A DNA stretch of 27,557 bases from a virus. The notes under the pieces were generated by a model that was not told where the DNA came from, searched no databases, and saw only the letters and a program-made list of their open reading frames with translations. The stretch spans positions 1-27,557 of IMG/VR virus record IMGVR_UViG_3300017710_000041. One strand, given 5' to 3'. The position numbers and the translations under genes were made by a program. Below, one piece after another: positions 2,623-22,501 of this stretch; within the stretch, counting starts at the first letter, position 1; each line of letters starts with the position of its first letter.

Positions 2623-3675
2623 ATGAGAATAACAAAAACTTACAAACAATCTGAATGGTTAACCGAAGGGCCAGAGGAATCTGCGTCTTTAAAAGCTGAC
2701 CAAGCACGTGAAGTTGAAGACCTCAAACGAAGACACGAAGACGAGGTAGAATCTCTCAAAGCAAAACATGAAAGAGAATCCGACAGACAGTCTAAGAAAG
2801 ATGAAGCAGAAGCAGAGAGAGACCAACAGGAAGATACTCTGCCTGATATCGAAGACTCAAAATACTTACAAAGTATTGAAGAGGGTAAACTTGTTGCAGA
2901 TGACTTGATGGTTATTGATGTTGCAATAAAAGACATTAAGAAACAAATGGTAACGTCACTGCAAAAGAACAGAGAAGCAGGAGTTAATTTCATCAACAGT
3001 CTGTTTAGAACTGCTGGTCTCAAATCAAAAGTCAGTGCAAAAATGCAGTCTAAAGGTAGACTATTTCTCAAGAACGATAAAGAAGAACAAGACAGAGACG
3101 TAAAACATAAAGATGGTACTCAACCCAAGAAGTATTACAAAGGTCTCGACAAAAAAACTAAAGATGCTAGGGATGCACATTTTAAAGCAAAGAAAAGCGG
3201 CCCAGCTCCAGGCGATAAAGATGCTAAAACTAAGACATCGGTTCATACTAAAAAGTATAAACAAATGTTTGGAGAAGACGTATCCCAAAAACAACTCAAT
3301 GACCTTGAAAAGTTTGCTGACAGAATCCTTAAAAAGTTTGGGGTTGATATTGAGTTCACCAAACATTTCGCTGACCGCATGAATGATGACCGTAATGACC
3401 CTGCTATAACAGTTGCAGAGTTACAACGTGTGTTCAAGAAGATTGCAAAAAACAAAGCAAAGAGTATTCGACAGAATCCCGATAGTGAAGCAGTCATCAA
3501 AGACTTGCAAATGGATTTAAACTTACCTGTTGTTATCAAGTATGACCGCAACAAGGAAGAGTTTGAGGTAGTCAACAAGACTATCATGCGTAAAAAAGAT
3601 TTCAAGACTACATCTAAGACTATCACAACAGAAAAAACATTAAAAGACATTTTTGGGAGTAACCATGACAGGTAA
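2623..3675 (+). CDS. Unknown coiled-coil protein with conserved C-terminal domain, possible capsid-targeted protein
   Basis: The protein has 350 residues. The N-terminus ends in WLTE-G (12-16), a plausible T4 gp21-type cleavage site after a short leader. Residues about 20-75 are a charged heptad-like coiled coil with repeated LKxxHExE units. The middle is basic. Residues about 215-345 form a distinct domain containing FTKHFADRMNDDRNDP, then a helix ending in NPDSEAVIKDL, then beta strands ending in KTIMRKKDF. I have seen this domain in other phage proteins. The His/Arg-Arg helix followed by strands resembles barnase/EndoU/RelE-type folds, but that is inference only. The end overlaps the next start by 11 nt. 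Confidence 0.8.
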   Translation: MRITKTYKQSEWLTEGPEESASLKADQAREVEDLKRRHEDEVESLKAKHERESDRQSKKDEAEAERDQQEDTLPDIEDSKYLQSIEEGKLVADDLMVIDVAIKDIKKQMVTSLQKNREAGVNFINSLFRTAGLKSKVSAKMQSKGRLFLKNDKEEQDRDVKHKDGTQPKKYYKGLDKKTKDARDAHFKAKKSGPAPGDKDAKTKTSVHTKKYKQMFGEDVSQKQLNDLEKFADRILKKFGVDIEFTKHFADRMNDDRNDPAITVAELQRVFKKIAKNKAKSIRQNPDSEAVIKDLQMDLNLPVVIKYDRNKEEFEVVNKTIMRKKDFKTTSKTITTEKTLKDIFGSNHDR

Positions 3676-21281: not shown

Positions 21282-21311
21282 TTGACAGTGACCCTACAAA
21301 AAGGTTATACT
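21282..21311 (+). promoter_or_regulatory. Sigma70-type promoter (TTGACA, N18, TATACT), predicted leaderless
   Basis: TTGACA (21282-21287) and TATACT (21306-21311) are separated by 18 nt. The predicted start site, 7 nt after the -10, is base 21318, exactly the A of the ATG. The TTGACAGTGACCC element is shared with 20566-20578. Confidence 0.75.
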
Positions 21312-21317
21312 ATACGT

Positions 21318-21866
21318 ATGGAAAATAAGAGAGTAAAGAGAATATTCATTGATATGGACGGAGTCTTGGTTGACTTCATTAAGGGTGTTTCTGAGATGAT
21401 TGGGAAACCTTTGACAGCGGATGATGCTGGTCACAGTGAATACGATGAGAGAAAACAAGAACTGACGGACAAGAGATTGTTCAGAAATTTACCACCAATG
21501 GTTGACTACCATGAGTTGATTGGTTATGTAAAACATACTCAACTTCCTTGGGAAATCTTGACTGCTGCTGGTAAAGTAAACAGACAAACAGTTGTCTATG
21601 ACAAGTGTGAGTGGATTAAACAGTATGTTGACCCATTCATCGTGACTACTTGTACTTACAGTGGAACACAGAAAGGTGCTTTCGCTGAGAAAGGTAGTGT
21701 TTTGATAGACGATAGACAAGTTAACATCGATGCTTGGGAAGCTAACGGTGGTATTGGTATCCTTCACACTAGTGCGGAGAATACAATCAACCAGTTGAAA
21801 GCACTCAGAAGTGGTGCTGACGTTGTCGAGTTAAAAAAAGAAGTCCCTGTAGTGAAACATAAGTAA
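21318..21866 (+). CDS. HAD-type 5'(3')-deoxyribonucleotidase
   Basis: This is a 182-residue reading from ATG 21318. A longer frame begins with TTG at 21282, but that TTG is the -35 box, so I reject it. HAD motif I is IFIDMDGVLVDF (Asp12, Asp14). Motif II corresponds to EILTAAGK, and SVLIDDRQVNIDAW is motif IV with the acidic pair. The length and the DMDGVLVDF form fit the NT5C/5'-nucleotidase C family that removes phosphate from dNMPs. It would adjust dNTP pools during infection, in keeping with nrdAB and mazG upstream and thyX downstream. It is the last gene before a terminator. Confidence 0.88.
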   Translation: MENKRVKRIFIDMDGVLVDFIKGVSEMIGKPLTADDAGHSEYDERKQELTDKRLFRNLPPMVDYHELIGYVKHTQLPWEILTAAGKVNRQTVVYDKCEWIKQYVDPFIVTTCTYSGTQKGAFAEKGSVLIDDRQVNIDAWEANGGIGILHTSAENTINQLKALRSGADVVELKKEVPVVKHK

Positions 21867-21867
21867 C

Positions 21868-21965
21868 TATTCATCGTGCATGGATGAGAGGGGAGCTCTG
21901 ACCTGTCGCAAGGGAAGAGAAAGGACGGGTCTTGAGCATTTGCGCCCAGTTATACGTCCGTAGGA
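21868..21965 (+). ncRNA. Candidate structured RNA / leader element
   Basis: This stretch is non-coding and clearly more GC-rich than its surroundings. Visible pairings: TTCATC/GATGAG near 21870-21888; GCTC (21895-21898) with GAGC (21934-21937), enclosing GACCTGTC (21900-21907) with GACGGGTC (21924-21931) over a purine loop; and a possible pseudoknot GGACG (21923-21927) with CGTCC (21955-21959). CGCAA (21907-21911) can alternatively pair with TTGCG (21940-21944). Competing helices followed by a terminator are the layout of a riboswitch or of a small RNA processed from the early transcript. I cannot match it to a named RNA family. Confidence 0.45.
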
Positions 21966-22006
21966 AAAAATACAATAACTGAAATTGCGAGACAATTTTT
22001 CGGGGT

Positions 22007-22041
22007 GGGGGTTTAGTCTTTAAAGAAACTCCCCCGTTTTT
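22007..22041 (+). terminator. Rho-independent terminator
   Basis: GGGGGTTT (22007-22014) pairs with AAA (22026-22028) and CCCCC (22031-22035), with a 2-nt bulge, and is followed by TTTTT (22037-22041). A weaker hairpin AAATTG/CAATTT lies just upstream (21982-21998). It should end the early transcript running from the primase or deoxyribonucleotidase promoters. Confidence 0.85.
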
Positions 22042-22047
22042 GTATCC

Positions 22048-22055
22048 ACTAAATA
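22048..22055 (+). promoter_or_regulatory. Late promoter-like octamer ACTAAATA before iscU
   Basis: ACTAAATA lies 5 nt (aggct) before ATG 22061, the same spacing as other late octamers, and directly after the terminator, so downstream genes need a promoter here. It is two mismatches from TATAAATA; the identical octamer occurs at 9808. Confidence 0.5.
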
Positions 22056-22060
22056 AGGCT

Positions 22061-22501
22061 ATGGCATATTCACAAAAAGTAATTGATAGATTCAATGACG
22101 TACTAGAGAATCCTCAGAAACATTCAGTCGGTAGGTTTGACCCTAATGACCCTAATGTTGCAACAGGAATGGCAGGAGCACCCGCCTGCGGTGATGTTAT
22201 GAAACTAGACCTTCTTATGGATGGTGATTACATAACAGATGTCAAGTTCAAAACATATGGTTGCGGTAGTGCAATAGCATCATCCACCATGTTTGTTGAG
22301 ATGTTAAAGGGTAAGACAATAGAACAAGCAAAAGAAATCAAAGATAAAGATATTGCAGACGCTCTTGAACTACCACCAATTAAATTACATTGTAGTGTTC
22401 TTGCGGAAGAATCTATAAGAAAAGCGATAACCCATTGGGAAGAAAAGTCTGACCATAGGAAACATAATTATTATGAAACAACCGAAAACAATACAGACTG
22501 A
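22061..22501 (+). CDS. iscU: Fe-S cluster assembly scaffold IscU
   Basis: The protein has 146 residues. The frame is open from 22040, but ATG 22061 follows the terminator and octamer. The three cluster-binding cysteines of IscU are present: C43 in APACGDVMK, C68 in YGCGSAIASS and C111 in LHCSVLAEE, with the Asp after the first Cys (D45) and His110 before the third. LPPIK, just before C111, matches the LPPVK motif recognised by the HscA chaperone. It is therefore likely functional with the host IscS/HscAB machinery, since no cysteine desulfurase is seen here. The C-terminus is extended by an Asn/His-rich tail. It overlaps the next gene by 29 nt. Confidence 0.92.
   Translation: MAYSQKVIDRFNDVLENPQKHSVGRFDPNDPNVATGMAGAPACGDVMKLDLLMDGDYITDVKFKTYGCGSAIASSTMFVEMLKGKTIEQAKEIKDKDIADALELPPIKLHCSVLAEESIRKAITHWEEKSDHRKHNYYETTENNTD

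Follow-up and report, generated by a model that had tools for sequence, protein, structure and literature searches.

A conserved non-coding RNA with two predicted tandem pseudoknots next to the NT5C gene of T4-like marine phages

In IMG/VR record IMGVR_UViG_3300017710_000041 (positions 1 to 27,557; this whole stretch is called the window, and all features given below lie on its + strand), about 180 non-coding bases separate the stop codon of one gene (21864-21866) from the start of the next (22061). The preliminary description of this DNA had placed a structured RNA and a terminator there. The question raised by the locus is whether such an RNA is a riboswitch or attenuator of the downstream gene, or a small RNA made from the end of the upstream transcript. 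The window covers part of the genome of a T4-like marine phage, whose primase has its nearest relatives in cyanophages and Methylophilales phages (37-40% identity). The upstream gene (21321-21866) encodes a 5'(3')-deoxyribonucleotidase of the NT5C family (Pfam NT5C, E 1.2e-6; phrog_2643, E 2e-37) and the downstream gene (22061-22501) is iscU (Pfam NifU_N, E 3.4e-38). That T4-like marine viruses carry iscU genes has been reported before (PMC5332604), and the novelty of this locus lies elsewhere. The non-coding status of the space between the NT5C stop and a late-promoter box at 22049 was confirmed; a coding element was rejected, as only short frames with no convincing protein family or phage match are present. 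ARAGORN and Rfam found no tRNA or tmRNA in the window. The region had also been called GC-rich, and GC content does reach about 50% at 21850-21949, but the enrichment is modest against surroundings of 35-46%.

Pattern and covariance-model searches recovered the same core from eight further IMG/VR contigs, in each of which it occurs once and lies between NT5C and iscU. These contigs yield a near-twin of the window (L082), the L084 group and L083. When the search was widened with an NT5C alignment, two distant alleles were added, L256 and L227/L228; four distinct cores besides that of the window (the L084 group, L083, L256 and L227/L228) were thus reached via relatives of the upstream gene, of which 80 of the 259 found were examined. 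Each phage record searched holds a single copy. The covariance model R1 was built from the window, L082, L084 and L083 before the distant alleles were known, and it matches L256 (E 2.8e-16) and L227 (E 3.2e-9), both in the slot directly after NT5C, with scores that lean slightly the wrong way because R1 still contained a helix, P2, that was later rejected. This helix (GTCTTG at 21929-21934 with CGAGAC) is present in the first three alleles and lost in L256. A pattern match in Rhizobiales (L146) and 28 matches to a looser pattern were judged to be chance, since L146 and the new pattern loci have no covariance-model match.

No convincing DNA match to the element was found in cultured phages. Moreover, Rfam 15 gave no family at gathering score anywhere in the window, with only an unrelated match at E 8 within 21800-22100, and likewise no match for the elements of L084 and L256/L227, so the earlier remark that the RNA fits no known class holds. 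Judged from these sequences, the element is an uncatalogued conserved RNA that would represent a new RNA family. Its folding energy does not stand out (z = -0.85); the evidence is therefore comparative and comes from the relatives.

The first structure supported in this way is a pseudoknot, PK1, of which one helix (P1, GGACG at 21923-21927 with CGTCC at 21955-21959) had been proposed from the window alone and is now backed by covariation. Across four independent alleles, all from metagenome contigs and with helices aligned by hand and eye, P1 reads GGACG/CGTCC, AGTGG/CCACT, GTCGT/ACGAC and GTCTA/TAGAC. All 20 of its 20 pairs are Watson-Crick and all five positions have changed on both sides, and arms swapped between alleles pair on average at only 2.0 of 5 positions. 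In shuffle tests P1 gave p values of 0.048 (L083), 0.016 (L256) and 0.011 (L227). The second helix, P3 (CAGTTAT at 21947-21953 with ATAACTG at 21975-21981), becomes CGATTAT/ATAATCG in L083 and TGTTT/AAACA in L227; it also has 20 of 20 Watson-Crick pairs, with three positions changed on both sides and swapped arms pairing at 3.0 of 5, and in L083 it reached 0.004 in a shuffle test under random substitution. P1 and P3 cross, the 3' strand of P1 begins 0-2 bases after the 5' strand of P3, and loop 3 (21960-21974) is A-rich in all alleles and varies in length. From this arrangement PK1 is predicted to be a classical H-type pseudoknot. Its loop 1 holds a small hairpin (21936-21945, GC-[AUUUGC]-GC in the window) with a stem that varies between alleles (GC/GC, AC/GT, TTAC/GTAG, CCTC/GAGG) and a hexaloop, AYNUGC, that is kept.

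When the core upstream of the terminator is compared between the window and L083, almost every difference is located in P1, P3, the small hairpin or loop 3, and the pairing is preserved. A lack of conservation or compensatory changes in relatives, named at the outset as part of what would refute the RNA, was not observed: the fold is kept and the paired letters have changed. The identity between the window and L084 has to be read with more caution. Their cores are 94.8% identical, while the two flanking genes agree at 56-62% of their third codon positions. However, the siblings L083 and L084 (94% over NT5C and iscU) differ in PK1, that of L084 resembling the window's, which indicates that PK1 has been exchanged and that identity alone overstates selection for this pair. 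Part of the window/L084 identity may thus come from recent exchange, of which the covariation in L083, L256 and L227 is independent.

The same covariation bears on the idea of an ordinary terminator with chance structure, or of a remnant of the 3' end of a gene. Nine residues, EIARQFFGV, that match the end of an L185 cytosine methyltransferase could speak for a remnant, but about one such chance DNA match is expected in the collection by our estimate, the short frames have no conserved starts and carry a 7-base indel, and no convincing protein family match exists. With P1 and P3 covarying, we regard this explanation as the least credible of those considered. The single L185 match was judged to be chance and a methyltransferase remnant was rejected; the cultured-phage relatives of that methyltransferase are Flavobacterium phage enzymes.

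The terminator (22007-22041) is real, as had been claimed, and its stem covaries. The stem-loop, GGGGGTTT-A-GTCTT-TAAAG-AAACTCCC (22007-22033), forms 32 of 32 standard pairs over the four alleles with four positions changed on both sides, and CTTTAAAG in its loop is kept in all alleles. A GC-containing stem, kept in every allele, is followed by a U tract (22037-22041), as in an intrinsic terminator; a simple pattern scan did not list it because three bases lie between stem and tract. The terminator loop may also take part in a second pseudoknot, PK2, in which GAGAC (21989-21993) would pair with GTCTT (22016-22020). This pair becomes GAGTC/GACTT in L256, and L227 keeps four of five pairs. Since there is one compensatory change, in L256, and swapped arms still pair at 3.9 of 5 positions, support for PK2 is only moderate. 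Between its 5' strand and the terminator lies a U-rich conserved loop, AATTTTTCGGGGT (21994-22006), of which ATTTTTCGG and the following GTG occur in every allele. If PK2 forms, the terminator sits within a second H-type pseudoknot, and its loop 1, with AUUUUUCGG in every allele, faces a UUU/AAA stem end, where a U.A-U triple helix would be possible by geometry.

Two further structures of the preliminary description fared less well. The long hairpin (21895-21937) folds well, with 12 pairs and -17.8 kcal/mol, and a slightly larger stretch (21890-21942) has -19.3 against -11.6 kcal/mol for shuffles, a value reached by 4 of 1000 shuffles; nevertheless it is specific to window/L081 and the near-twin L082, and is absent from L083, L084, L256 and L227. 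The alternative helix CGCAA/TTGCG is unsupported, as it uses 21908-21912 within this unconserved part. In the phages of the window and L082 the hairpin would preclude P1 and the small hairpin of loop 1, and may be either a switch or a recent acquisition.

These competing folds would be expected if a ligand bound PK1 and controlled read-through of the terminator into iscU, or into whichever gene follows, and the order of pseudoknot, terminator and gene also suits such a riboswitch or attenuator. However, the competing hairpin is the one missing from L083, L084, L256 and L227, and a conserved anti-terminator was not seen on inspection by eye. In addition, a cis-acting riboswitch should sit in the leader of a gene or pathway that is conserved downstream of it, and here the downstream genes differ: iscU, a protein of 80 residues and unknown function in L256, or a CxxCxxCC zinc/iron-chelating protein in L227. 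The element directly follows NT5C in every phage found, L256 and L227 included, among the 80 of 259 NT5C relatives examined, and it is absent beside other iscU genes, which have different upstream regions. The downstream gene moreover has its own late-promoter box past the terminator, in the window the T4-like CTAAATA (22049-22055) 5 nt before the ATG. With a constant NT5C, a changing downstream gene and a late box after the terminator, the proposed switch for iscU is disfavoured, and we consider it distinctly unlikely.

The promoters argue for a link with NT5C. A sigma70-type early promoter, TTGACA-18-TATACT (21282-21311; 11 of 12 consensus matches), precedes NT5C, and a TTGACA-18 nt promoter lies upstream of NT5C in all the phages with an RNA in this slot that were checked (window, L083, L084, L256, L227, L250, L257, L204, L101 and L116), that of L256 being a perfect consensus match; L089 has no slot RNA and also misses this promoter. 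The late box [CA]TAAATA has 12 copies on the + strand of the window and none on the - strand, several of them 5-6 nt before an ATG. With a promoter before NT5C and a late box beyond the terminator, the element would be part of the early NT5C transcript and the next gene could be read from its own late promoter, the early and late timing in the window phage being carried over from T4. As a separate observation, the boxes at 433, 2611, 4638, 9383, 10213 and 22049 each stand 5-6 bases before an ATG, a spacing which suggests that this phage makes many late mRNAs with little or no leader.

The reading we prefer, to which we give an even chance, is that an early transcript ends in a conserved non-coding RNA (21923-22041), which folds into tandem pseudoknots and persists as a small RNA. 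Transcription would start at the promoter at 21282, pass through NT5C and the RNA and end at the U tract of the terminator. The transcript would fold into two tandem H-type pseudoknots, PK1 with P1 crossing P3 and then PK2 with the terminator loop pairing to the upstream GAGAC, and such a knotted 3' end should give a stable RNA. This RNA could persist either cut from the NT5C mRNA or retained on it, and might act in trans through the AYNUGC loop and AUUUUUCGG, conserved segments that would be exposed. Sequence comparison establishes that the element is conserved, that P1, P3 and the terminator stem covary, and what its genomic slot and promoter layout are; this anatomy suits a small RNA derived from the end of the early transcript. 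The long 5' hairpin of the window allele, which would compete with PK1, counts against it. A search for antisense targets within the phage's own genome fragment, the window, gave no match above chance. A bolder version seems to us unlikely: a new phage RNA family with two tandem pseudoknots, the second a pseudoknotted terminator perhaps stabilised by a triple helix, that would act on a host target in trans soon after infection, with PK1 exchanged between phages as a specificity module.

The element could alternatively be only a cis-acting 3' UTR, in which the pseudoknots sharpen termination and shield the NT5C mRNA from 3' exonucleases, with no separate RNA and no function in trans. Its constant position after NT5C, the terminator at its end and the inclusion of that terminator in PK2 agree with this, and a triple helix between the U-rich loop and the three A-U pairs opposite it is conceivable, as in known 3'-end protecting elements. 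Nevertheless many NT5C relatives, among the 80 of 259 examined, lack the element or have a tRNA or another RNA instead; moreover a terminator alone is normally enough and PK1 would be superfluous. We regard a purely protective role as possible but rather doubtful. Judged by its place and by the layout of the locus, the element is more likely to be a non-coding RNA that ends the early transcript, be it small RNA or protective tail, than a switch for iscU; the split between small RNA and tail is a matter of judgement.

The contents of the slot in other phages are in line with a stable RNA being made there, as relatives carry a tRNA in the same place: tRNA-Arg(TCT) followed by a CTAAATA box in L101, L102, L109-L111, L116-L120 and L124-L126, confirmed by ARAGORN in L101, L116 and L124. 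Another structured RNA follows NT5C in L250 (2499-2650), L253 and L257 (2493-2640); it is closed by GACTGTGGAAT/ATTCCAGTC, and after it comes a terminator-like hairpin bearing GAAGAGTATTGGATGG, a motif that is also found upstream of the double pseudoknot of L227. A small hairpin with a loop like AGAAANNNGCCC lies just after NT5C in L083 and L084 (both at 3593), L256 (2541), L227 (2519) and L204 (2517), with varying stems (GCAAC/GTTGT, CCAAC/GTTGG, CGAGG/CCTCG, GCAGG/CCTGC), and is a further module common to these slot RNAs. Directly before the iscU late promoter of L009, L011, L016, L017 (2830-3000), L020, L024 and L034, phages with glutamine riboswitches, stands a conserved non-coding stretch of another kind, about 170 bases long; it reads GTAGTTG/CAACTAC in some and GCAGTTG/CAACTGC in others (covariation by eye) and has no Rfam match. 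The slot after NT5C, which holds a tRNA, the double-pseudoknot RNA or other structured RNAs depending on the phage, is thus a simple place to find more phage RNAs.

Among known systems, type III antitoxin RNAs are built of tandem repeats of a 34-40 nt pseudoknot, and the element shares with ToxI a pseudoknot RNA followed by a terminator. An RNA that served as a decoy or in counter-defence by binding a host protein, much as these antitoxins bind theirs in pseudoknot form, would agree with H-type pseudoknots with A-rich loops, with early timing and with PK1 differing between the siblings L083 and L084 as if variants were swapped. Unlike ToxI, however, the element has no tandem repeats (none at 21800-22100) and no ToxN-like gene, the gene directly downstream being NifU_N/IscU instead of a toxin endoribonuclease; the proposal is purely speculative and we hold it to be very improbable. 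The preQ1, SAM-II and SAM-V riboswitches also combine an H-type pseudoknot with an A-rich loop, but the element has no Rfam match to them and is not in the leader of a conserved gene. To our knowledge the small stable RNAs RNAC and RNAD of T4 have not been described as double pseudoknots, and they are set beside the element by description and not by sequence. Like the small RNA proposed here they are small phage RNAs, of the tRNA region (PMC3014915), and the slot of the element is used for a tRNA in relatives. The autoregulatory pseudoknot of T4 gene 32 is, like the predicted PK1 and PK2, of H-type and in the mRNA of a T4-like phage (PMC3014915). It binds gp32 and is placed 5' of its regulated gene, whereas the element comes 3' of NT5C and is followed by a terminator. 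According to a 2010 review of post-transcriptional control in T4, the roles of RNAC and RNAD were unknown and no riboswitch or trans-acting regulatory RNA from T4 had been functionally characterised (PMC3014915). Beside these, the element described here is a concrete candidate: a conserved, single-copy, structured RNA that marine T4-like phages carry in what is probably an early transcription unit.
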